From the NCBI GenBank assembly GCA_025056175.1, contig JANWWK010000023.1, forward strand, positions 1 to 51,980: a stretch of DNA of 51,980 nucleotides, read 5' to 3'. Positions 40,637 to 51,980 of this stretch are shown here, piece by piece. The stretch comes from Anaerolineales bacterium. GTDB taxonomy: Bacteria > Chloroflexota > Anaerolineae > Anaerolineales > Villigracilaceae. Every line of letters begins with the position of its first letter. Position 1 is the stretch's first letter. Below the pieces are notes generated by a model that saw only the letters and a list, made by a program, of their open reading frames with translations, ran no database searches and was not told the DNA's origin. A program made the translations under genes and the position numbers.

Positions 40637-42322
40637 ATGTCCGAAATAAACCTGCCTGCTTTGCGAAACGCTATCTCACCCTATCTCCCGTTGGGACGTT
40701 CCGGTCTGTTGCCAGCTCTGCACGCCGCGCAAGCGGTGTGCGGTTGGATTCCGCCAGAAGCCGCTGCCGAAGTGGCCCGATTGCTGAACGTGCCGCTGGC
40801 GGAGGTGCATGGGGTCATTGAGTTTTACAGTCTCTTCTATAACGAACCGGTAGGGCGGCGGATTACGCGGGTGTGTACGGATGTGGCCTGCGCGCTTAAG
40901 GGCGGGGATGCCCTGCTGAACGGACTATGCGCCCAACACGGAATCCGACCGGGACAGACGACGCTGGATGGCGCTGTCACCATCGAATCCGCGCCCTGCC
41001 TGGGGATGTGCGACCTGGCCCCGGCGGTGTTGACCGTGGACGATGGTCGCTGGACGGTGGGCGACGGGAAACTGCGCCCGCGTTCGCCGATATATGGCCT
41101 CAACCGTCTGCTCACTGCGCGCTGTGGACGGGGTCGTCAGACCACACTGGCCGAATATGGCGGCTATGAAGCGCTGCGTAAAGCGCTCAGGATGACGCCG
41201 GAACAGGTCGTTGCTGAAATCAAAGCTTCGGGGCTGGTGGGGCGCGGCGGGGCGGCCTTCCCGACTGGCGTCAAGTGGGAGGGGGCGGCAAAGGCGGAAG
41301 GTTCACCAAAGTATGTGGTCTGCAACACCGATGAATCGGAGCCGGGAACGTTCAAAGACCGCGTTTTGTTGATGGATGACCCGCACAGCGTGCTTGAAGG
41401 CATGTTGATTGCCGGGTATGCCATTGGCGCGGCGCGCGGCTACTTTTACGTGCGTGGAGAGTATGCCTACATGCTGCCGGTGTTACAGGCCGTCTTCGAT
41501 TCGGCGCGTAAGGCGGGCTTGCTGGGAGAGAATATCCTGAATTCCGGTTTTTCGTTCGAGGTGGAAATCCGTTTGGGGGCGGGGGCATATATCTGTGGCG
41601 AAGAGACAGCGTTGTTCGAGTCCATAGAGGGCAAACGCGGCTTTCCGCGTATCAAGCCGCCTTTCCCTACCACGCACGGGCTGTTTGGCAAACCGACCGT
41701 TATCAACAACGTGGAAACGATGTGCAATGTGCCGCTCATTTTGAAGATGGGCGCGCAGGCGTATCGCCAAATTGGGACGGAGAAATCTACCGGGCCAAAG
41801 TTGTTCTGCGTTTCGGGCGATGTGGCCCGTCCTGGCGTGTACGAAGTGCCGTTTGGGGTGACGCTGCGAGAATTGCTGGCGATGGCAGGAGGAACGGATG
41901 GGGGAACGGAGAAGGAAACAGAAAAACAGATTCAGGCCATCCTGTTTGGCGGGGCGGCGGGGACGTTTGCGACGGCGGAACACCTGGATGTGCGCCTGAC
42001 GTTCGAGGATTTGCGCGCGGCGGGGCTCTCGCTCGGTTCGGGGGTGGTGATGGTGTTCGACCACTCGCGCGATTTACGCAAGGTGTTGACGAAGTTAGGA
42101 CATTTCTTTGCGCATGAATCGTGCGGCAAGTGCTATCCGTGCCAGATGGGGACGCAAAGACAGTTGGAGATTCTGGAACGGCTGGCGGAGGGAAAATCTC
42201 TGCCCGGCGACCGGGAACGTTTGCAGGATGTGGGCTGGACGATGACCGATGCCAGTCTGTGCGGGCTGGGGCAGACGGCGGCCAGCGCGGTGCTTTCGGC
42301 GATGAAACTGGGTCTGGTCTGA
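40637..42322 (+). CDS. Fused NuoE-NuoF-type NADH dehydrogenase/diaphorase subunit
   Basis: This 561-residue protein has an N-terminal NuoE-like [2Fe-2S] thioredoxin-fold domain (C80, C85, C121, C125), then a NuoF domain with the NADH/FMN site [10 protein letters not shown] (202-211), [21 protein letters not shown], and a C-terminal [4Fe-4S] site CGKCYPC with C542. It passes electrons between NAD(H) and iron-sulfur partners, as in NAD-dependent formate dehydrogenases and hydrogenases. Two low-complexity inserts, [10 protein letters not shown] (135-144) and [12 protein letters not shown] (420-431), are encoded by repeat-like DNA. The ATG has GGAG at 5 nt; TATACT at 40611 may be the -10. It is the first gene of the formate dehydrogenase set. 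Confidence 0.93.
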
Positions 42323-42379
42323 AAGCGGATGAGGAAACGGATGGTGAAACGGATAAACGGATGAAGCGGATTGACGCGG
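42321..42379. repeat. Degenerate AAACGGATG-type tandem repeat
   Basis: Near-identical units of the form AAACGGAT(G/A) and AGCGGATGA follow one another from just after the NuoEF stop through most of the 97-bp spacer. They resemble repeats at 15605-15680, and the NuoEF insert around 41890 shares GGAACGGA units. Confidence 0.55.
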
Positions 42380-42419
42380 AGTTTTCTATTGCTTGCGCCG
42401 GAAAGAAAGTGGAGTTCTC

Positions 42420-43112
42420 ATGCTAAAAATCGTTCTTGATGGTCAGGAAGTGATGACAGCGGAAGGGGCAACCCTGCTCGAGGCGGCTCGCGCTGCCGGT
42501 ATCGAAATTCCCACCATTTGCTGGCACCCGGCCACCACCGCCAACGGTCTCTGCCGATTATGCGTGGTGGAGGTGGAGGGGATGCGCCTGCTCCAGCCGG
42601 CGTGTATCGTCCGTGTGGCGGAGGGGATGAAGGTGCAAACCCGGTCGGAACGGGTGATTCGCGCGCGCCGGACGATTCTGGAAATGCTCGCTTCGAGCGT
42701 GGATTTGTCCGATTCTCCCGAAATCCGGGCGCTGATGCAGGAATATCATGCTTCGGCAGAGCGTTTCCCTGGCGCGAAACGGCGCGATGTACCGCTGAAA
42801 GACGATAACCCGATGTATGTGCGTGATTACGCCAAATGTGTCCTGTGCTGGCGCTGCGTGCAGGTCTGCGCGGAGGATGCCCAGTACACTTACGCCATCA
42901 ACTTCAGCGGGCGCGGCTACGAAACCGAAATCGGGACGTTCTTCGATGCGCCGATGCCCGCCACGACCTGCGTATTCTGCGGTCAGTGCGTGGGGGTCTG
43001 CCCAACGGGCGCGCTCAAGCCCAAACGCGAATTCCTGCTGGAGCAAGGGCTGAAGCCAGAAGAGATTGTGACGCGTTCTTCCGGGCGCAAACAGCGGAGG
43101 GAAAACCGATGA
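42420..43112 (+). CDS. NuoG/FdhA-N-terminal-type iron-sulfur subunit
   Basis: This 230-residue protein has an N-terminal [2Fe-2S] ferredoxin domain (C34, C45, C48, C61 pattern in [16 protein letters not shown]) and two 4Fe-4S motifs, [11 protein letters not shown] and [16 protein letters not shown]. It equals the N-terminal part of NAD-dependent formate dehydrogenase or NuoG, without the molybdopterin domain, which is encoded separately at 43987. The NuoG His-Cys3 cluster motif is not visible. It probably carries electrons from the formate dehydrogenase to the NuoEF subunit. The ATG at 42420 has GTGGAG at 6 nt and its stop overlaps the EamA start. Confidence 0.9.
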
Positions 43113-43948
43113 CGTTGGGGATTCTTCCGATTGCTCTTGGCCTGACCGCCGCGCTTGTGTGGGGCGCAGGCGATTTCAGCGGCGGGATTGCCTCCAAACG
43201 TACCCGTCCGTTAAGCGTGGTGATTGTGGCGCATCTCTTCAGCATGGCTTTGCTCCTGGGAGTTGCGCTGGTTTTGCGAGAACCCTTGCCCTCTTTGCGC
43301 GCCTGGCTGTGGGGTGGGCTGGCCGGGCTGATAGGCCCGGCGGGGCTGGTTTTGCTCTATCAGGCGCTGGCAAGCGGCAAGATGAGCGTTGCCGCGCCGG
43401 TTTCGGGCGTGGTGGGCGCGGCGCTGCCGGTGGTTTTTGGCGCCTTTACGCAGGGCTTGCCCTCTTTTGGGGTGCTGCTCGGCTTCGCGCTGGCAATGGC
43501 AGCTATCTGGCTGGTTTCGGAGGGGGGCAGCGCGCATTTTCGCCTGGCCGATTTGCGTCTGCCGGTGCTGGCTGGCCTGGCGTTTGGTTTCTTTTTCATT
43601 GCTTTGCACCTGGCCGGTGATGAATCGGTCATCTATCCGCTGATTGCTGTGCGCATTGTTTCGATTACCAGCCTTTCCCTGTTCGCGCTGCTCCTGCGTC
43701 AACCGGTGAAGGTCGCTCGTGAGACCTGGATACCCGTTCTGATGAGCGGTTTGCTCGATACGCTGGGCAACGCGGCTTATGCGTTGGCCGCGCAAACCGG
43801 GCGCGTGGATATTGCCGCCGTGTTGGGTTCGCTCTATCCCGGCACAACAGTGCTGCTGGCCTGGATTCTGCTCAAGGAGCGCATCAATCGTCAGCAAATG
43901 GTTGGTATTGCGGCGGCGCTGGCGGCGATTGTGTTGATAACAGTTTGA
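43109..43948 (+). CDS. EamA/DMT-family transporter
   Basis: This 279-residue protein has ten hydrophobic segments in two repeats of five, the DMT/EamA layout, with [20 protein letters not shown] at the start and [17 protein letters not shown] at the end of the first repeat. The substrate is unknown. It overlaps the iron-sulfur gene by 4 nt with GGAGG 9 nt upstream, and lies 38 nt before the formate dehydrogenase catalytic gene. A transporter in the middle of an electron-transfer operon is odd; it could move formate-related or cofactor precursors, but no evidence shows this. Confidence 0.85.
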
Positions 43949-43986
43949 CTTATCCCTATCGGTGGGATAGGTTCGGAGGATGACCT

Positions 43987-46206
43987 ATGCTCGAACCCGA
44001 ACGCATTACCCGTACCACCTGCCCTTACTGCGGAGTCGGCTGTACGCTCGACCTGCACGTGCGCGATAACTTTATCTACAAAGTGACTTCGCCCTTCGAT
44101 TCGGTCGTCAATAAAGGCAATTTATGCGTCAAGGGGCGGTTTGGCTACGATTTTGTCTATCACCCACGGCGGATGACCAGGCCGATGGTGAGACGGTATT
44201 TGCTGCCAGTGAGCAGTGAGCAGTTATCAGTGAATAGAAGGGATGCGCCTGAATGGGGAAACCGCTCGCTGATGACTGACCCACTGACGACTGATACATC
44301 CCCCTGGGATTGGGTCGAAACGGACTGGGACACTGCCCTGAACCTGACCGCTGATAAACTGGTCGAAATCTACCGCCGCGATGGTTCGGATGCGATGGCG
44401 GTGTATTGCTGCGCCAAAGCCACCAACGAGGATAACTACCTGCTCCAGAAGATGTTCCGGGCGATTTTCCGCACGAACAACGTTGACCACTGTACTCGTC
44501 TATGCCACGCCGGGAGCGTGGTGGCGCTTCAGCAGGCGCTCGGCACGTCGGCTATGTCCAACACGGCCAGCGAGGTGTTGCTCAACGATGTGTTCATTGT
44601 CACCGGCTCGAACACCACGGAAAACCATCCCATCATCGCGCTTCAGATGAAAGAAGCCGTCCGCAAGCGGGGCGCAAAACTGATTGTGGCCGACCCACGC
44701 CGCATTGAGCTGGTGGATTTTGCCGAATTGTGGCTGCCGCTCAAGCCGGGAACGAACGTGCCGCTTTTTAACGCGATGGCGCATGTCATCGTCCAGGAAA
44801 ATCTGGTGAATTGGGAATTTGTCCGCACCCGCACCGAGGGGATTGACACCTTTATTGCTTCACTGGAAAAATTTACCCCCGAATTTGCCGAATCCATCTG
44901 CGGCGTGCCTGCCGAAGACATTCGCCGTGCCGCCCGGCTGTATGCGACGGCCAAACATGCGGCCATTTACTGGGGCATGGGCATTTCGCAGCTTTCGCAC
45001 GGCACGGCCAGCGCGCTGACGCTGATTCATCTGGCGCTGCTGACCGGTCACATTGGGCGGCCCGGCACGGGGCTGAATCCGCTGCGCGGACAGAACAACG
45101 TGCAGGGCGCGAGCGATATGGGCGCCATGCCTTTTCACTTTCCCGGCTACATGCGGGTGGATGCGCCCGGCAACGCCGAGCAGTGGGAACGGCTCTGGAA
45201 TGTAGAGCCGGGCGGTCTTTCGCGCAAACCCGGCCTGACCACCACCGAAATCCTCTCGCATGCCCATCCGGGCGGGGTGCGCGCGCTCTACATCATGGGC
45301 GAAAACCCGATGATGACCGAACCAAACCTGAACGAGACGCGGCGGCATATCGAGCAGTTGGAATTTCTCGTCGTGCAGGATTTATTCCTCACCGAGACAG
45401 CCGTCTATGCGGATGTCTTCCTCCCGGCCACTCCCTTTGCCGAAAAGGAAGGGACGTTTACGAACACCGACCGCCGCGTGCAGCGAGTCCGCGCCGCCCA
45501 CCCGCCGCGCGGCCTTTCACGCCCCGATAGCGACATCATCTGTGACCTGGCCCGGCGGCTGGAAGCCCGGCTCGGACGCCCCACCGCCCGCTGGGATTAC
45601 GCCCACCCCTCCGAAATTCTGCGCGAAATGGCCTCCGTCAACCGTGATTACGCCGGAATCACCTACGAGCGCATCGAAAAGGTGGGGTTGCAGTACCCCG
45701 TTCCCGACGAAACCCACCCCGGTACGCCGACCCTGTTCCTCGAGTCGTTCCCGCGCGGCCGGGGGCGTTTCATCCCGGTAGATTACGTCCCTTGTGCCGA
45801 ACTTCCCGATGACGAGTATCCCTTCATTCTGACCACAGGGCGTGTGCTGGAACACTGGCATGGTGGCTCGATGACGCGCCACTCTGACCTGGACGAACTC
45901 TACCCCGAAGCGCGTGTCGAAATCCACCCGGCAGATGCTGAACTGCACGGAATTGAGAATGGCAGCCTGGTGCGGGTCACCACGCGGCGCGGTCAAGTGA
46001 CTCTGCGCGCTCATGTGACCGAAAAGACGACCGTCGGCGTTTTATTCATCCCCATGCACTTCCACGAAGCCGCGGCGAACCTGCTGACGACGGATGCGCT
46101 TGACCCGCAGGCCAAAATCCCGGAGTTCAAAGCCTGCGCGGCGCAGGTCTTCCCGGCGCGGGAGGAAGAAACACACTCTCCGGCGGCAGCGCGGGGGCGA
46201 TATTGA
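43987..46206 (+). CDS. fdhA: Formate dehydrogenase catalytic (molybdopterin) subunit
   Basis: This 739-residue molybdopterin oxidoreductase has the [4Fe-4S] ligands C12, C15, C19 and C47 (CPYCGVGC, NLCVKG) and the active-site Cys C173 in DHCTRLCHAGS, with the adjacent histidine of formate dehydrogenases. Cys, not selenocysteine, is used. Molybdopterin guanine dinucleotide motifs include GSNTTENHPI, YWGMGISQLSHGT and GENPMMTEPN, and a C-terminal dinucleotide-binding domain with TTGRVLEHWHGGSMTR. Residues about 71-106 are an insert encoded by repeat-like DNA with inverted ends. It lacks the N-terminal ferredoxin domain, which the gene at 42420 supplies. The reaction is formate to CO2, or the reverse. 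Confidence 0.94.
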   Translation: MLEPERITRTTCPYCGVGCTLDLHVRDNFIYKVTSPFDSVVNKGNLCVKGRFGYDFVYHPRRMTRPMVRRYLLPVSSEQLSVNRRDAPEWGNRSLMTDPLTTDTSPWDWVETDWDTALNLTADKLVEIYRRDGSDAMAVYCCAKATNEDNYLLQKMFRAIFRTNNVDHCTRLCHAGSVVALQQALGTSAMSNTASEVLLNDVFIVTGSNTTENHPIIALQMKEAVRKRGAKLIVADPRRIELVDFAELWLPLKPGTNVPLFNAMAHVIVQENLVNWEFVRTRTEGIDTFIASLEKFTPEFAESICGVPAEDIRRAARLYATAKHAAIYWGMGISQLSHGTASALTLIHLALLTGHIGRPGTGLNPLRGQNNVQGASDMGAMPFHFPGYMRVDAPGNAEQWERLWNVEPGGLSRKPGLTTTEILSHAHPGGVRALYIMGENPMMTEPNLNETRRHIEQLEFLVVQDLFLTETAVYADVFLPATPFAEKEGTFTNTDRRVQRVRAAHPPRGLSRPDSDIICDLARRLEARLGRPTARWDYAHPSEILREMASVNRDYAGITYERIEKVGLQYPVPDETHPGTPTLFLESFPRGRGRFIPVDYVPCAELPDDEYPFILTTGRVLEHWHGGSMTRHSDLDELYPEARVEIHPADAELHGIENGSLVRVTTRRGQVTLRAHVTEKTTVGVLFIPMHFHEAAANLLTTDALDPQAKIPEFKACAAQVFPAREEETHSPAAARGRY
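44203..44306. repeat. Inverted degenerate repeat inserted in frame within fdhA
   Basis: The left part has overlapping CAGTGAG/CAGTTAT/CAGTGAA units (44208-44232), and the right part has the same family in inverse orientation (TGATGACTGACCCACTGACGACTGATA, split over 44270-44300). The two arms flank a central stretch of about 40 nt. It is wholly translated, with no frameshift. No flanking duplication was recognised. Confidence 0.6.
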
Positions 46207-46233: not shown

Positions 46234-46258
46234 TCTCCGTGCAGGAGAGAATCATTTC

Positions 46259-47182
46259 ATGAAGCCGTCTTTTGATACCTTCGTACAGACTTGTACTCCG
46301 CTGTTGAAAATACCGGAACTCGAAGACCGAATGCGGGAGAGAGTCTGTCAAATTGTGCAGGAATTGCTGAATTTTCAGCCAGACGCTGACCCCGCTGGAA
46401 CTCTCAAACGCTTCTTGCAAAAAGATGAAAACTTTTTGGGCGTTTTGCTTGCGCTCACCAATCTTTCGCAGGAAAAATTTTTGCGAATTATCACCGCACA
46501 ACGTTTTGCCCGGCGAGATTTCAAGCCTGAATGGGGTGCAAAAGCCATTTACCGTAAAATTAAACGCGATGATGCCTTTGCTGGACAAATTGCGCGCCTG
46601 TTTCTGGAAGGACGCAACAGCCAGCTGTTGGCAGAGCAGGTAGCCGATTTTTACCTTGACCAGCTTTCGCTGCCCGAAAACTGGCCTGCACTGATTCGGG
46701 ACACCAACCTGATTGGCAACGTGGTACGGCAAAAACTTGCCGGAGAGTATTCGGATAAAAAGGGAGAGTATATCGAGCGGGAGGTATCCGCCGTTCTTGA
46801 CGAAATCGAACGAAAATACGGTATTCCGCATGCACATGGACAAGTCAGATTGGTCGCTAAAGAAGTCGACCATGTAATTCCTTCGTTGGAAGAACCGTTT
46901 GTGATGGTGATGGTTTCATATATGGAAACCACGTCTAGCAGCCAAACTGCCCGTGCGAATGAACAGCAAGCCATGTATCAAAAAATTGTAGGAGAGAACA
47001 TTCGGTACCGAGAAAAACGCATTCTGGTCAACGTTGTAGATGGTGCTGGCTGGCTGGCAAGACGTTCGGATTTGCGTAAAATGTATGAGGGCTGTGATTA
47101 CTGCCTGAACATGAAAACGTTGTCAGCACTCGAAGAAATTATCCTGACCCATGTACCGGAGCGCTTTCGGCGCCCAATTTAG
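46259..47182 (+). CDS. Probable type II restriction endonuclease
   Basis: This 307-residue protein lies 10 nt before a DNA methyltransferase gene and is transcribed with it, which is the main reason for the call. The chain is largely helical in the first half. A beta-rich segment KEVDHVIPSLEEPFVMVMVSYMETTSSSQTARANEQ (about 200-238) has an acidic D-then-E-x-T arrangement that could be a PD-(D/E)XK variant, but I cannot assign a catalytic triad or recognition site. Base composition is noticeably lower in G+C than the flanking genes. The start has CAGGAG 11 nt upstream. Confidence 0.65.
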   Translation: MKPSFDTFVQTCTPLLKIPELEDRMRERVCQIVQELLNFQPDADPAGTLKRFLQKDENFLGVLLALTNLSQEKFLRIITAQRFARRDFKPEWGAKAIYRKIKRDDAFAGQIARLFLEGRNSQLLAEQVADFYLDQLSLPENWPALIRDTNLIGNVVRQKLAGEYSDKKGEYIEREVSAVLDEIERKYGIPHAHGQVRLVAKEVDHVIPSLEEPFVMVMVSYMETTSSSQTARANEQQAMYQKIVGENIRYREKRILVNVVDGAGWLARRSDLRKMYEGCDYCLNMKTLSALEEIILTHVPERFRRPI

Positions 47183-47192
47183 AGGTGCAAAC

Positions 47193-48158
47193 ATGCTCGA
47201 AAGATTTGTTGACCGTATCCTTCCAGGAGACGTTCTTGAACATCTGTCGAAGATACCCTCCGACAGCGTGGATATGTGCTTTGCCGATCCACCGTTCAAC
47301 CTGGAAAAAAAATACAATTCTTATAAAGACCAGCGTCCCGATGAAGAATACCTGGCCTGGTGTCGGGATTGGTTGACAGAACTGGTGCGTGTTACCAAAC
47401 CAACCGGTTCAATTTTCATCCACAATATCCCCAAATGGCTGACTTACTATGCAGCTATTTTGAACGAACATGCTTACTTCAAACACTGGATTGTCTGGGA
47501 TGCCATGAGCAATCCGCTAGGCAAAACCCTCCTCCCTGCTCACTACGGTATTTTGTTCTACACCAAGCAGCCCAAAGGGTTTAAGTTCTATGAAATTCGT
47601 GCCCCGCATCGCAAATGCCGGGTGTGCGATAGTTACCTGAAAGATTATGGCGGCAAGAAAGACCAGATGCACCCCTTTGGGGCGCTGGTGAGCGACGTCT
47701 GGACGGATATTTATCGAATTCGTCACAACGTTCGACGGGATGAGCATCCCTGTCAATTGCCGATTCACTTGCTGGAGCGGATAGTACTGATGAGTACTGA
47801 CGCAGGTGATGTCGTTCTTGACCCTTTCCTGGGTACGGGAACGACCGCTATTGCTGCCAAGGCGCTCGGTAGACACTATATTGGGATTGAACTCGACCCG
47901 GAATATCAGCGCATTGCCGCGCAGAAAATTGCACAAACAACGCCCTCGTTCTATCAGGGCGTTTACGTCTCTTACTATCTCGGAAAAATCCAAAGCATTC
48001 GCGATGTAGATGCACGTGAACTGTTCCCCCCGCAGTTAACTGCTCCTGAAAAGAAGCGTTCAAAAGTGAAGGGACGCATGGAAGAAGCCGAAATTCTTGT
48101 TGAACCCGTGTTACAGCCTGTTTTGCTGGAAAAGCAAGCCGAGTATACACTTGCCTGA
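47193..48158 (+). CDS. DNA methyltransferase, beta class (N6-adenine or N4-cytosine)
   Basis: This 321-residue protein has the catalytic motif DPPF (D32-F35, FADPPFNLEKKY) before the SAM-binding motif (LDPFLGTGTT, D210-T218), the order of the beta class. The conserved HPCQLPIHLLERI and GIELDPEY motifs are present. A C-x2-C (C142, C145) within an insert may bind metal. It protects DNA from the upstream endonuclease, forming a type II restriction-modification pair. The ATG at 47193 has AGAGGTG at 5 nt. DPPF rather than SPPY/DPPY leaves the methylated base unassigned. Confidence 0.9.
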   Translation: MLERFVDRILPGDVLEHLSKIPSDSVDMCFADPPFNLEKKYNSYKDQRPDEEYLAWCRDWLTELVRVTKPTGSIFIHNIPKWLTYYAAILNEHAYFKHWIVWDAMSNPLGKTLLPAHYGILFYTKQPKGFKFYEIRAPHRKCRVCDSYLKDYGGKKDQMHPFGALVSDVWTDIYRIRHNVRRDEHPCQLPIHLLERIVLMSTDAGDVVLDPFLGTGTTAIAAKALGRHYIGIELDPEYQRIAAQKIAQTTPSFYQGVYVSYYLGKIQSIRDVDARELFPPQLTAPEKKRSKVKGRMEEAEILVEPVLQPVLLEKQAEYTLA

Positions 48159-48162
48159 ACCT

Positions 48163-49767
48163 ATGCCCGCCTCCCAAAAACTCCTGAGCGTCCGCAATCT
48201 TTCCAGGTCATTCGGCCCGGTCGAAGCGTTGAGCGGGGTGAGTTTTGACCTGGAGCCGGGCGAAGTGTTGGGGGTGGTGGGACAGCGCGGCTCGGGAAAA
48301 TCTACCCTGTTCCGCCTGTTGGGTGGGGCGTATGCGCCCAGCGGGGGGGAAATTCTGTTCGAGGGTCGGCGTTTCGGTTCGCGGGCAGCCTGGCAGGCGC
48401 GTCAGTGGGGCATCGAAGCCGTCTATCAGAACCCGCCGCTGGCGAACAACCTGACCGTGTTACAAAACATCTTTTTGGGACGGGAATTGTGTCACTTTGA
48501 GCCGCTGCGCTGGTGGCCGAAGGAAGGCGAAATGGCCGAGATTGCGCGCGCCTTTCTCGCCGATTTCGATATGCCCCCTGAACTGCTTCACGAATCGCCT
48601 GCTAACCTTTCCAACGAACAAAGGCAGTTAGCCGCGATTGCCCATGCACTGTGCCGTCCCTGTAAGTTGCTTTTGCTTGATGATACGCTGGCAGCGTTGA
48701 GTTTTCAGCGGCAACAAAAACTGCTCGACCGCGTGCGCGAACTGGCGGCGCAAAATGTGGCCGTCATCATCAGCAGTGACGATTTGAAACACATTTTTGC
48801 CGTCACCAATCGCATTCTCGTCCTGTATCAGGGCCGGCAGGCAGCCCTGCGCGAGACGCAGAAGACCACCGCGCGCGAAGTGGTGGAGTGGATTGTCGGC
48901 TCTAACCGGCAGGAGCAGGTTACGCCGGTCATTTGGGCGTTCGAAAATTACTATGCCGCTCAACAGCAGGCGGAAGAGTTACAGCGCGCGCAACAGGTCT
49001 TACAGCAAAGTCTGAAGGAGCAAGATTCCCTCAACCGGCAGTTAATTGAACGGCTGCGGAAGCAGCTGCAATCGCTCGACCGGTTGAACCTGGCGCTTCA
49101 GGAGGCCAACCGCCGTCTGATGACCGAGCGTGAAGCCGAACGCAAGGCGCTGGCGCGTGAACTGCACGACCAGGTAATTCAGGATTTGCTCAGTTACACC
49201 TACCAGTTGGAAGACCTGGAAAACGAGGCCGGAGAATCTGAACGACAAGAAGAACTGGCTGAGATTCGGAATGGAATTCGCCAGGTAGTGAGTGGGCTCC
49301 GCCAGATTTGTAGTGACCTGCGCCCACCGACAATTGATAGTCACGGGTTGTCTGCTGCCATTCGTTCGCTGGCGCATCAGTGGTCCAAGCAAACCGGTAT
49401 CAAAGTGGAATTGGACCTGGACCCGGAACTGGGCCGTTTGCCCGAACCGATTGAACTTTCAGTGTTTCGCATCGTACAAGAGGGTCTCAGCAATGTGCGG
49501 AAACATGCGCTTGGTGCAACGCGGGTGGCGCTCTCCCTGTACCGCACGCCAACGGCCAGCCTGGTGGTTCGGATGTCGGATGATGGTCCCGGCATTGAAG
49601 CGCCGATTGATTTGGCTGAACTTTCAGAAAAGAAACACTTTGGCCTGGTGGGCATCAGCGAACGGGTGAGTTTGCTCGGAGGGAGTATGCAGATTGACTC
49701 GTCACCCGGCGGCGGCGTGCAGGTGTGTGTCGAAATTCCCAGTCCCTATCCCACCATGGTGGCATAG
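48163..49767 (+). CDS. ABC ATPase - NarL-family histidine kinase fusion protein
   Basis: This 534-residue protein joins two well-known modules. Residues 6-245 are a sugar-type ABC ATPase (RbsA/MglA-like): Walker A GQRGSGKST (40-48), Q-loop Q89, a signature LSNEQ (149-153) for LSGGQ, Walker B LLLLDD with Asp for the catalytic Glu, and no H-loop His (SSDD). A coiled coil (about 255-330) leads to a HisKA_3 box with H335 (ARELHDQVIQDL), then a HATPase with N444 (GLSNVRKH), DDGPGI and FGLVGISERV. The ATPase half looks degenerate, so it may sense or dock rather than transport. The only upstream gene on this strand is the restriction-modification pair. The convergent response regulator begins 6 nt past the stop. 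Confidence 0.92.
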   Translation: MPASQKLLSVRNLSRSFGPVEALSGVSFDLEPGEVLGVVGQRGSGKSTLFRLLGGAYAPSGGEILFEGRRFGSRAAWQARQWGIEAVYQNPPLANNLTVLQNIFLGRELCHFEPLRWWPKEGEMAEIARAFLADFDMPPELLHESPANLSNEQRQLAAIAHALCRPCKLLLLDDTLAALSFQRQQKLLDRVRELAAQNVAVIISSDDLKHIFAVTNRILVLYQGRQAALRETQKTTAREVVEWIVGSNRQEQVTPVIWAFENYYAAQQQAEELQRAQQVLQQSLKEQDSLNRQLIERLRKQLQSLDRLNLALQEANRRLMTEREAERKALARELHDQVIQDLLSYTYQLEDLENEAGESERQEELAEIRNGIRQVVSGLRQICSDLRPPTIDSHGLSAAIRSLAHQWSKQTGIKVELDLDPELGRLPEPIELSVFRIVQEGLSNVRKHALGATRVALSLYRTPTASLVVRMSDDGPGIEAPIDLAELSEKKHFGLVGISERVSLLGGSMQIDSSPGGGVQVCVEIPSPYPTMVA

Positions 49768-49773
49768 CACGTT

Positions 49774-50817
49774 TTACACGAGCGTGTCGTTCACCAGCTG
49801 GCGCAACGTGGCGGCATCTATATCTTTTTTGTCTAAGAAGGCCACTGCGCCTGCGTTCAATCCCATGCGCCGAAATTCCCGGTCAGGATAGGCGCTAATC
49901 AGGATAATGCGCGTTTGGGGAGAAACGGTTTTCACACGGCGCGCACACTGAATGCCATCTTCTTCTCGCAAAACGACATCAATAAAGGCCAGTTTGGGTT
50001 TCATCTGTCCTGCCAGACGTGCGGCTTCGGCGCCATCTTCGGCTTCGTAGAGAACCGCGCCCGGGCTGACACGCCCCACCAGTTTGCCCAATTGCGCCCG
50101 ATAGCGGGGGTTATCATCTACCAACAGCACCGAAAGCGACTCGGCCCGCGCCTCTGTGCGTGCCTGGGCTTTTTCCTGCTCCGGGATGAGCAAAAGTTCC
50201 GGGTGGCGGCTGGCGAAATTATTGGCCTCCAGGCGGCTTTCGACCCCAATGGCGCGATACAGCGCCGTCAGATGATTTTCCACTGTTTTGATGCTCAAAT
50301 CCATGACCAGCGCAATTTTCTGGTTGTTGTAGCCTTGCGTGAGCAGGTAGAGCAGTTCCCGCTGGCGACGGGTAAGTGGGAAGGCGGTTTCGGTGTGGTG
50401 GTGATGGTCTACCAGGCGGTTAACGAGCGGGTCTGAAATCCAACGCCCGCCATCGAGTATCCGGCGGACGGCCAGTTGCAGGTCCGAAAGTGGCTGGTCT
50501 TTCAGGTGATACCCGTTCACACCTGCCGCAAGCAGCCCCACCACGTAGGCTTCGTCGTCGTAGGCGCTCACAACCAGAATTTTCAGGTGAGGATAGCGCG
50601 TTCGGATTTGGTGAACTGCCGTCACTGGCTCGAACTCCGGCATATTGACGTCCATCACCAGCAGGTCGGGCCGCGTTCGTTCCAGCGCATCAAACAGGTC
50701 TCGACCATTTGCCGCTTCGCCTACAATTTCGATTTCCGGCAGGCCGGCCAGGGCATCACGCAATCCGGCGCGTATCAGAGCATGGTCATCGGCTAACAGG
50801 GTGCGGGCAGGGGACAT
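49774..50817 (-). CDS. Response regulator with REC-LuxR HTH-REC architecture
   Basis: This 347-residue protein has an N-terminal receiver (D10, D11, phosphoacceptor D56, S84, K106), a LuxR/NarL-type helix-turn-helix (about 146-205: LTRRQRELLYLLTQGYNNQKIALVMDLSIKTVENHL), and a second complete receiver at the C-terminus (D234, D235, D280, S308, K330). Both receivers keep the acidic pocket, so both may be phosphorylated. NarL-type regulators normally end after the HTH. It is convergent with the ABC-kinase fusion gene and divergent from the sugar-binding lipoprotein. TAAAAT lies about 7 nt before the ATG with no ribosome site. Confidence 0.93.
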   Translation of the reverse strand: MSPARTLLADDHALIRAGLRDALAGLPEIEIVGEAANGRDLFDALERTRPDLLVMDVNMPEFEPVTAVHQIRTRYPHLKILVVSAYDDEAYVVGLLAAGVNGYHLKDQPLSDLQLAVRRILDGGRWISDPLVNRLVDHHHHTETAFPLTRRQRELLYLLTQGYNNQKIALVMDLSIKTVENHLTALYRAIGVESRLEANNFASRHPELLLIPEQEKAQARTEARAESLSVLLVDDNPRYRAQLGKLVGRVSPGAVLYEAEDGAEAARLAGQMKPKLAFIDVVLREEDGIQCARRVKTVSPQTRIILISAYPDREFRRMGLNAGAVAFLDKKDIDAATLRQLVNDTLV

Positions 50818-51168
50818 ATCGGGAATTTTAATCGAATTGGGGGAAATCCCCTAAAGCATCGGGGGGAATTTCTGTTAAAAATCTCAGGGGATAGGGGTTG
50901 AAGCCATTGTTAACGATTGATTATGATTAGATTGCACGCCCATATCCTCGTGAAGAAAGGAGGTGGTTCGCCGCTAGTGCCTGCATGAAGTCGCCTCGCC
51001 CGAACAGATTTGCCTGGAGAGGCCGGTTTCTGTGCAGAATTGCGTCAATTATTGTGTTTCCCGCTTTTCGCAGGCCGGTAACTCTAACTCTGCCGGCTGG
51101 CGGCAAGAAACTGCCGCGCACCCCCTTCTTTTTCAACCTTTTACCCAATCCTTCGAGGAGGAACGTTC
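50818..51168. promoter_or_regulatory. Long regulatory spacer between response regulator and sugar-binding lipoprotein
   Basis: This 351-bp spacer has a perfect palindrome GGGGA-AA-TCCCC at 50840-50851, followed by a related GGGGGGAATTTC at 50861-50872 and AGGGGATAGGGG (50886-50897), a possible operator cluster. A promoter TTGAAG (50898-50903), 18-nt spacer, TATGAT (50922-50927) points to the lipoprotein gene. Its leader of roughly 235 nt carries the GGAGGTGGTTC motif at 50959-50969, then hairpins such as GCGGCA/TGCCGC near 51102-51119. GAGGAGG before the ATG at 51169 is the ribosome site. Confidence 0.55.
50950..50988 (+). CDS. Possible 12-codon leader peptide
   Basis: A GTG at 50950 opens a 12-codon frame reading V/MKKGGGSPLVPA and ending in TGA at 50986-50988, at the start of the predicted leader RNA. 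Codons 3-7 hold AAGGAGGTGGTTC, the 13-nt match to the leader at 5934, and both short frames encode GGGS near the start. Without evidence of translation the call is weak. Confidence 0.25.
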   Translation: MKKGGGSPLVPA

Positions 51169-51980
51169 ATGTTCAAGAAGAGTTCGCTTTACGCACTGGT
51201 GGCTGTTCTGTTCATTGCCGCCGCGATTCTCTCGGCGTGCGGAACACCCACCCCGACAGCGCAACCTGCCGCCCCTGTGGCCACCGAAGCGCCCAAGAGC
51301 AAACTGGCGGTTGGCATTGTGCTGCCCACAAAAGATGAACCGCGCTGGATTCAGGACGAAACCCGCTTCAAAGAAGCTCTGACCAAAGCCGGCTATGATG
51401 TCGAAATCCTGTTCAGCCAGGGTTCTTCGGCGAAAGAAAAAGAGAACGTCGAATCCCTCATCACCAAAGGCGTGAAAGTTCTTATCATCTGCCCGCATGA
51501 TGGTTCTGCTGCCGCGGCTGCTGCCGAAGCCGCCAAAGCCGCCGGTGTGAAGGTCATCTCGTATGACCGCCTTATCCGCGACACGGATGCGGTGGATTAC
51601 TACGTCACGTTCGACAGCGTGGCGGTGGGTGAAGCGCAGGCGCAGTATCTGGTGGATAAGGCCACCGGCAAGGGCAACCCGCTGTACCTGTATGCAGGCG
51701 CGGCTTCGGACAACAATGCGTTCCTGTTCTTCGAGGGCGCATGGAACGTGTTGCAGCCGAAGATTGCGGATGGCACGTTCGTCATCAAGAACTCCAGCGA
51801 AGCGGAAGCGCTCTCTGGCAAGGCGAAGTTGACGCGCGAAGAGATGGGCAAAATTATCGGTCAGATTACGACCAACTGGGATTTCAACACAGCCAAGAAC
51901 CTGGCCGAAGCGAACCTGACGAAGGCGACGGCAGCGGACAAGGGCAACGTGTTCATTCTGGCCCCGAACGATGGGACGGC
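51169..51980 (+). CDS. ChvE/XylF-like sugar-binding lipoprotein of an ABC transporter (partial)
   Basis: The gene runs off the window end; 270 residues are visible. The signal peptide has lipobox LSAC (C24), followed by a short Thr/Pro/Ala linker. The mature part is a periplasmic-binding-protein type 1 fold: KLAVGIVLPTKDEPRWIQDETRFKEAL, CPHDGSAAAAAAEAAKAAGVKVISYDRLIRDTDAVDYYVTFDSVAVGEAQAQYL, typical of ChvE and xylose-binding proteins for multiple monosaccharides. The cognate transporter genes are probably beyond 51980. The ribosome site GAGGAGG lies 7 nt upstream. Its divergence from the response regulator and proximity to the ABC-kinase fusion suggest that the sugar it binds is the signal. 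Confidence 0.92.
   Translation, partial: MFKKSSLYALVAVLFIAAAILSACGTPTPTAQPAAPVATEAPKSKLAVGIVLPTKDEPRWIQDETRFKEALTKAGYDVEILFSQGSSAKEKENVESLITKGVKVLIICPHDGSAAAAAAEAAKAAGVKVISYDRLIRDTDAVDYYVTFDSVAVGEAQAQYLVDKATGKGNPLYLYAGAASDNNAFLFFEGAWNVLQPKIADGTFVIKNSSEAEALSGKAKLTREEMGKIIGQITTNWDFNTAKNLAEANLTKATAADKGNVFILAPNDGT

Follow-up and report, generated by a model that had tools for sequence, protein, structure and literature searches.

The window, that is, the whole stretch of 51,980 nucleotides that was analyzed, ends in a cluster of genes in which an ABC ATPase and a histidine kinase are encoded as one chain beside a response regulator and a sugar importer. The last 141 bases of the window are the first 141 of a second contig, C50; by this exact overlap, the order of genes in the genome is the fusion, the regulator (on the opposite strand), the sugar-binding protein (SBP), the ATPase and the permease. 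The features are as follows.

48163 to 49767, plus strand: ABC-HK fusion, here called FUS (from ORF, Pfam, family alignments, AlphaFold2 model and hydropathy)
49774 to 50817, minus strand: response regulator, REC-LuxR(GerE)-REC, convergent with FUS (Pfam, alignment)
50837 to 50854, no strand assigned: probable operator, an imperfect palindrome TTGGGGGAAATCCCCTAA, in the divergent intergenic region between the regulator and SBP genes (conservation)
50898 to 50927, plus strand: putative promoter toward the SBP gene, TTGAAG and TATGAT with an 18-bp spacer (in a stretch conserved in eight intergenic regions)
51169 to 51980, plus strand: ChvE/XylF-like sugar-binding lipoprotein, cut at the contig end (Pfam, contig overlap)
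C50, 582 to 2120: GguA-like tandem ATPase, after the remaining part of the SBP gene
C50, 2132 to 3319: GguB-like permease, after the tandem ATPase

Immediately 5' of FUS on the same strand (46256 to 48158) lie a DpnII-like restriction endonuclease (PF04556, E 3.5e-07) and then an N6/N4 DNA methylase, probably a restriction-modification pair. The methylase gene ends at 48158, leaving a gap of four bases before the FUS start, and FUS has no obvious Shine-Dalgarno sequence. No methylase match was found at the other FUS loci searched, including L024, which is 90% identical. Further upstream, the plus-strand genes at 40637 to 46206 encode a NuoE/F-like fusion (2Fe-2S_thioredx plus Complex1_51K), a ferredoxin-type subunit and a molybdopterin oxidoreductase. 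Together they may make up an NAD-dependent formate dehydrogenase; a frame amid these redox genes resembles, by eye, a DMT-type transporter.

Architecture of the fusion protein

The FUS reading frame opens with ATG and runs for 534 codons with no internal stop. Pfam models place ABC_tran at residues 23-176, HisKA_3 at 326-389 (48.3 bits, against a cut-off of 24) and HATPase_c at 432-527, all in one chain, as the earlier note had it in describing an ABC ATPase joined through a coiled coil to a HisKA_3/HATPase kinase. The layout is a CUT2-type NBD (about 6-245), a conserved linker (about 246-290), a coiled coil, HisKA_3 and HATPase_c. In an alignment of 48 rows, H335, D336 and Q340, the HisKA_3 histidine with its DxxxQ, are invariant, as are N444, D473, G475, G477 and G494 of the N and G boxes of HATPase_c. 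The linker, which reads TPVIWAFENYY in the window protein, includes a W258 that is invariant in the 48 rows; it is a candidate contact site, although the purpose of its conservation is unexplained.

FUS is predicted to be a soluble kinase without any transmembrane or periplasmic part. No transmembrane stretch is found in the window protein, where hydropathy averaged over 19 residues peaks at 1.03, against 2.36 in the GguB-like permease of the same genome. The highest such value among 52 members, 1.72, falls in the NBD core of L096. An AlphaFold2 model made with 48 sequences gives the NBD about 90 pLDDT and shows an uncertain linker (residues 247-262 below 50) with long helices ahead of the kinase core; with an overall pTM of 0.49, its placement of the domains is unreliable. 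No solved structure of FUS appears among the 60 listed of 415 structures matched by sequence or among the 50 listed by fold. All of those listed are ABC proteins or ABC-containing complexes, with no histidine kinase in their titles.

Motifs kept and lost in the ABC half

Motifs were counted in 52 FUS sequences, one row being cut at a contig end ahead of the Walker A glycines. Motifs that bind ATP are kept: the Walker A Lys of GxxGxGK[ST] occurs in 51/52 and the Walker B Asp in 52/52. The Q-loop Gln is present in 49/52, and it is followed by a segment N-[IV]-F-L-G-x-E (Asn102 in 45/52, Phe104 in 50/52, Leu105 in 51/52, Gly106 in 50/52, Glu108 in 51/52), which we take to be the permease-contacting region. 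Position 4 of the LSGGQ signature, the second Gly, is Glu in all 52 sequences, and none of the 52 has the H-loop His. This His is present in 32 of 32 N-terminal halves of tandem ATPases (four duplicate loci among them) and in 4 of 4 single-domain CUT2 ATPases inspected; the latter have a canonical LSGGQ and catalytic Glu as well.

For the window protein, the residues previously read from the sequence are all correct: LSNEQ at 149-153, Asp174 at the place of the catalytic Glu, Asp206 at the place of the H-loop His, and His335. The suggestion that the catalytic parts are altered holds for the family as to the signature and the H-loop, but the Asp for Glu exchange is not a family trait: the position is Glu in 26, Asp in 23 and Asn in 3 of the 52. 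Because half the family keeps this Glu, it is the altered signature and the missing H-loop His that argue for loss of hydrolysis. In human CFTR the corresponding signature position is hit by G551D, a mutation that blocks ATP-dependent gating. From the pattern of kept and lost motifs, the FUS NBD would bind ATP, be unable to close a working ATP sandwich, and carry out no hydrolysis.

Family distribution and phylogeny

FUS is a conserved family within Chloroflexota, kept as one polypeptide. A search of relatives found homologs with both halves in 16 of 61 genomes, counting the genome of the window itself and one homolog cut at a contig end. A scan of a genome-contig collection, whose counts hold within the scope of the short exact peptides it used, found such homologs at 18 loci, one cut by a contig end and one from Chloroflexus islandicus. 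Across 400 genomes of the phylum, FUS is present in 27 at E <= 1e-80, spanning 14 of 225 genera. Removal of six duplicate loci left a working set of 53 distinct FUS loci. The homologs keep the ABC-HisKA_3 order in a single gene rather than as two separate genes, and since they span both halves in many genomes, a missed stop, a frameshift or an assembly artifact between the halves is ruled out. Apparent extra N-terminal domains in L047 (709 aa) and L056 (742 aa) were judged on inspection to be read-through of upstream frames. None of the 5000 plasmid records listed covers 80% of the FUS query; the best listed plasmid matches to the ABC half are at about 40% and end near its boundary, and two of them are labelled ribose ABC transporter proteins.

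Two trees were built to place the ABC half. The first contains 51 fusion NBDs, 28 N-terminal and 28 C-terminal halves of tandem ATPases, and 4 single ATPases; in it, the fusion NBDs form one group (support 100/100) apart from the C-terminal halves, with the warning that long branches meet in this tree. The second contains 22 of the fusions, 9 tandem ATPases, 7 single ATPases of fusion genomes, and 19 others. The fusion group again appears (100/99) and is joined to single-domain ATPases at 82/79. The ABC half thus appears to sit with single-domain CUT2 ATPases and the NBD1 of RbsA-type proteins, not with NBD2, its exact sister being weakly supported. The original description of this half as RbsA/MglA-like is to be amended accordingly. 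The best ABC-half match in the genome of the window is a tandem N-terminal half, at 35%. The single-domain relatives, which we presume to be FrcA-type, differ from FUS in having canonical motifs, in the four inspected, and no kinase. The absent H-loop His had hinted that the FUS NBD descends from NBD2 of an RbsA-type ATPase, a derivation that both trees leave unsupported. Nor is there support for one local duplication giving rise to both FUS and the single ATPases found in operons with it, as those ATPases are scattered on the second tree.

A dedicated response regulator

A model of 17 regulators with the REC-LuxR-REC architecture was run against 400 genomes and, at E <= 1e-100, matches a single protein in each of 28. 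All 27 FUS genomes carry exactly one, as does only 1 of the 373 others (G083). This association is given without a p-value, since the model was partly built from the counted genomes and related genomes do not count as independent cases. The pairing extends to genomes in which the two genes are apart: in five genomes of family f46, FUS is isolated and the regulator lies elsewhere, beside an operon of SBP, single ATPase and permease, and in G118 and G298 the regulator and FUS are on different contigs. Around three single-ATPase operons of FUS-less genomes, the 10-14 kb searched contain no regulator. By this co-occurrence, the regulator is very likely the dedicated partner of the FUS kinase. The second receiver domain of the protein, placed after the LuxR DNA-binding domain, has phosphoacceptor-like residues of its own (D234, D235, D280, K330), invariant in 17 aligned regulators.

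Importers and operon types

The importer beside FUS in the window appears to be related to ChvE-GguAB, and we do not call it a member: the best NCBIfam matches are GguA for the tandem ATPase (775.7 bits, cut-off 810), GguB for the permease (408.5, cut-off 450) and, for the SBP of L027, ChvE (257.8, cut-off 460), all below the cut-offs. The FUS partner permeases examined are of the BPD_transp_2 type. Judged by the positions of six permease matches relative to ABC matches, no orphan permease is evident in the genome of the window, and FUS would therefore share the GguB-like permease with the tandem ATPase.

Among the 53 loci, many of them on short contigs, a permease or SBP is found in 41 and the regulator in 39. 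A tandem ATPase lies within 9 kb of FUS in 29 of 53, a count that includes the six type B loci described below and L045 and leaves out the window, where the ATPase gene falls on C50. For the GC-rich loci L045, L095, L098 and L100, the neighborhoods were established by tblastn and HMM. In the commonest arrangement, type A, FUS is near a complete importer of SBP, tandem ATPase and permease. In type B (L094, L095, L096, L098, L099 and L100), the gene order is PERM2-SBP2-FUS, a second permease and binding protein with no ATPase between. Close to each of these six loci there is also a set of SBP, tandem ATPase and permease, which in five lies upstream on the same strand and in L096 downstream; in the five, that ATPase could serve the extra permease too. 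A variant, type B', is SBP-PERM-FUS at L046, with no ATPase in view before the contig is cut. At L111, where the SBP and permease are similar to those of L046 (60% and 56%), a single ATPase lies between the two. Type C is SBP-single ATPase-PERM-FUS (L048, L051, L097, L111). Type D comprises loci where FUS has only the regulator in view (L049, L054, L056, L057) and six where it is isolated, with no transporter nearby (L101, L103, L104, L107-L109). Neither regulator nor transporter is in view at L026 and L055. Besides the six isolated loci, six in all, mostly on short contigs, have no transporter in view. The fusions of all six type B loci and of L046 have the catalytic Glu.

Homologs of PERM2 at E <= 1e-60 number nine copies in 8 of 121 genomes. 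Two are from type B loci, and the other seven, in six genomes outside the 27 with FUS, have a tandem ATPase just 5' in every case. At L045 the order is SBP2-tandem ATPase-PERM2-FUS, a complete PERM2-type importer with no palindrome 5' of the SBP, and possibly an intermediate. Genome G083 keeps the importer together with the regulator and a mismatch-free palindrome. In the same assembly, of about 480 contigs, PERM2 is broken, the FUS match is limited to residues 440-525, and no SBP2 was found. It looks as if PERM2, SBP2 and FUS decayed there jointly as one unit, misassembly being another possibility.

A palindrome upstream of the binding-protein gene

The regulator and SBP genes of the window are transcribed away from a 351-bp intergenic region between them (50818-51168). 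In eight regions of this kind a palindrome, with zero to two mismatches to GGGGAAATCCCCTA, recurs along with the promoter-like stretch; the family consensus of the palindrome is TTAGGGGAAATCCCCTAA. We then searched 38 regions upstream of SBP genes, taken from SBP matches that start near the N-terminus and have at least 250 bp upstream (others, such as L157, were dropped), some of these regions coming from close relatives. Of the 38, 33 contain the pattern AGGGGRAATCCCCT at up to two mismatches no farther than 500 bp 5' of the SBP gene, and 27 contain it at up to one. Dinucleotide shuffles of the same regions (60 each) gave a mean of 0.28 and a maximum of 2, and none at up to one mismatch. All of the hits fall in the 36 regions from fusion genomes (33/36), and neither control, from the FUS-less genomes of L156 and L158, has one (0/2). 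The three fusion-genome regions without a site belong to L045, to L096 and to a truncated SBP where L046 ends; a second SBP of L046 does have a site, located between it and the regulator. The palindrome precedes importers with a tandem ATPase as well as those with a single one.

The genome of the window holds one mismatch-free copy of GGGGRAATCCCCTAA, at 50840, and nine more at one or two mismatches, against five for the reversed control pattern. For the window by itself, 45 of 100 shuffles yield a site at two mismatches or fewer. Chance matches being this common in a single window, the evidence for the palindrome is its conservation, and its recurrence ahead of the SBP gene (33/36 regions) makes the importer operon the probable target of the regulator. 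Of 201 genomes, 11 have the ChvE-like SBP itself at E <= 1e-80, namely nine FUS genomes, G083 and G253. In G253, which is of the same genus as G221 and keeps the SBP, there is no full-length FUS, no regulator, and no site near the SBP.

Proposed function

FUS is very probably the sensor of a two-component system dedicated to the importer operon. We further propose, with a probability of roughly 0.6, that its retired ATPase docks on a CUT2 permease, and that the importer, or a receptor shaped like an importer, drives the kinase. The two NBDs of a FUS homodimer would suit the two docking sites expected on a CUT2 permease dimer and would be seated there. Engagement of the permease by the sugar-loaded binding protein would produce a change that the NBDs and then the coiled coil relay to His335, and phosphate would go from there to the REC-LuxR-REC regulator. 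The regulator, binding TTAGGGGAAATCCCCTAA in front of the binding-protein gene, would set expression of the importer operon. The direction of this regulation and the sugar itself are presumptive. Where a complete importer is the sole candidate, as in the window, the kinase would share the permease with a working ATPase and sample idle and busy transporters. In some lineages FUS sits with a second permease and SBP that lack an ATPase of their own, together a proposed importer-shaped receptor. The signaling half of this proposal is strong, and the docking half is soundly reasoned. Against the full proposal weigh the tandem ATPase near 29 of the 53 loci, type B included; the isolated and other loci with no transporter in view; the lack of an evident orphan permease in the genome of the window; the catalytic Glu kept by half the family; and L045, where FUS adjoins a complete importer and, as at L096, the palindrome is missing 5' of the SBP. 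The earlier note's idea of an ATPase paralog that reads a permease and drives the kinase gains from the motif losses, the ATPase-less operons, the exclusive regulator and the probable operator, while docking, signal flow and inactivity are its presumptive parts. The partner it names, the permease of the adjacent transporter, is not always adjacent or of the same transporter type.

The ABC half might instead be a soluble sensor of energy or of a metabolite, with the ATP/ADP ratio setting the kinase, no contact with a permease, and the importer only a target. A Walker A motif kept while hydrolytic parts are lost, a protein free of transmembrane segments and the six isolated loci without a nearby transporter gene would all suit such a sensor. 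We consider it unlikely, as FUS is repeatedly beside a permease and SBP (at seven loci without an ATPase of their own), retains the CUT2-type segment after the Q-loop, and seems to have decayed together with PERM2-SBP2 in G083. The same ATPase-less loci, having no other ATPase between permease, SBP and FUS and keeping the Walker B Glu in all seven fusions, raise the question of whether FUS is a working transport ATPase that powers these permeases and signals during transport. The universal loss of the H-loop His and the universal signature Glu, at the position where the CFTR mutation blocks gating, make this very improbable.

Two other readings turn on the separate ATPases. NBDs of the ABC ATPase fold dimerize, and canonical single-domain ATPases share the operon with FUS at the four type C loci; a FUS NBD might pair with the NBD of such an ATPase, single or tandem, in a mixed dimer that reads or brakes the importer. 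Reasoning from the motif residues, neither composite site would be complete in this pair. The HisKA_3 half is moreover expected to self-dimerize, and the arrangement misfits loci where the permease has no separate ATPase, so that we think a mixed dimer quite unlikely. It is also rather improbable that PERM2 and SBP2 are ordinary transport parts that share the operon's tandem ATPase while the adjoining kinase senses something else. Such sharing would account for the SBP-tandem ATPase-permease set near 6/6 type B loci, but the PERM2 homologs of FUS-less genomes have their own tandem ATPase (7/7), L046 has no ATPase in view on its cut contig, and G083 retains the ATPase and importer having apparently lost PERM2, SBP2 and FUS.

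Returning to the docking proposal, its boldest form is that in two or more operon types (the six PERM2-SBP2-FUS loci and L046) a complete ABC importer became a receptor by replacement of its ATPase with a kinase bearing a dead NBD. We give this somewhat less than an even chance; the SBP and permease would then report sugar and no longer move it. If the proposal is true, an ABC importer becomes a signaling receptor by exchanging its motor for a kinase, a covalently wired means is at hand to study how an NBD reads the state of a permease, and a regulator of monosaccharide uptake is named for part of the Chloroflexota. With kinase, regulator, probable operator and target operon all defined, the system is directly testable.

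Comparison with known systems

In E. coli MalK-MalT, an ABC ATPase subunit reports the state of the transporter to the regulator of importer genes. MalK is a working ATPase whose target is a transcription factor, and neither a kinase nor phosphotransfer takes part, whereas FUS is a kinase with an altered NBD. Sugar-binding proteins are linked to two-component systems in ChvE-VirA, and in such systems the SBP presumably addresses a periplasmic or membrane region that belongs to the kinase. CuaD and XylFII-LytS of clostridia likewise tie a sugar-binding protein to two-component control of sugar uptake. FUS differs from these in having no periplasmic or membrane part, and would need the permease as an intermediary. 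UhpC-UhpB provides a transporter-derived protein as the receptor of a kinase. The ECF S-component/5TMR kinases (PMC11109136) have transporter-derived receptors of this kind, as proposed for FUS. The receptors of UhpC-UhpB and of the ECF S-component systems are no ABC-importer permeases with an ATPase-derived dock.

Bce modules such as BceAB-BceS (PMC10314905) resemble the FUS system in that a histidine kinase receives its sensory input from an ABC transporter. BceS is described there as a separate membrane kinase that touches the transporter via transmembrane helices; FUS is by contrast a soluble kinase with an importer-type ATPase domain in its own chain and a CUT2 sugar importer as the transporter. 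The SLC5/STAC kinases CbrA, CrbS and RpuS, as described in PMC9100948, have like FUS a transporter-derived part fused to the kinase, and RpuS controls an uptake gene. There the fused part is a membrane symporter domain, while FUS has a cytosolic ATPase fused and its permease separate. Among the best-ranked titles and abstracts from open-licence PMC literature, none describes a histidine kinase with an ABC ATPase in the same chain. The FUS system would belong to transporter-coupled two-component signaling, with a covalently attached domain that derives from an ATPase.

Other genes at the loci

The SBP beside the importer at L028 (1063-3243) has two Peripla_BP_4 stretches in one chain, a tandem binding protein, and similarly long SBP matches occur in L033, L041 and L110. 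In L043 and L044, two extra genes (298-332 aa and 273 aa) lie between the SBP and tandem ATPase of the CUT2 operon and resemble, by eye, CUT1-type (MalF/MalG-like) permeases. The isolated FUS genes of L101, L107 and L109 share a 5' neighbor of 399-425 aa that resembles, also by eye, a radical-SAM enzyme of the menaquinone (futalosine) pathway.
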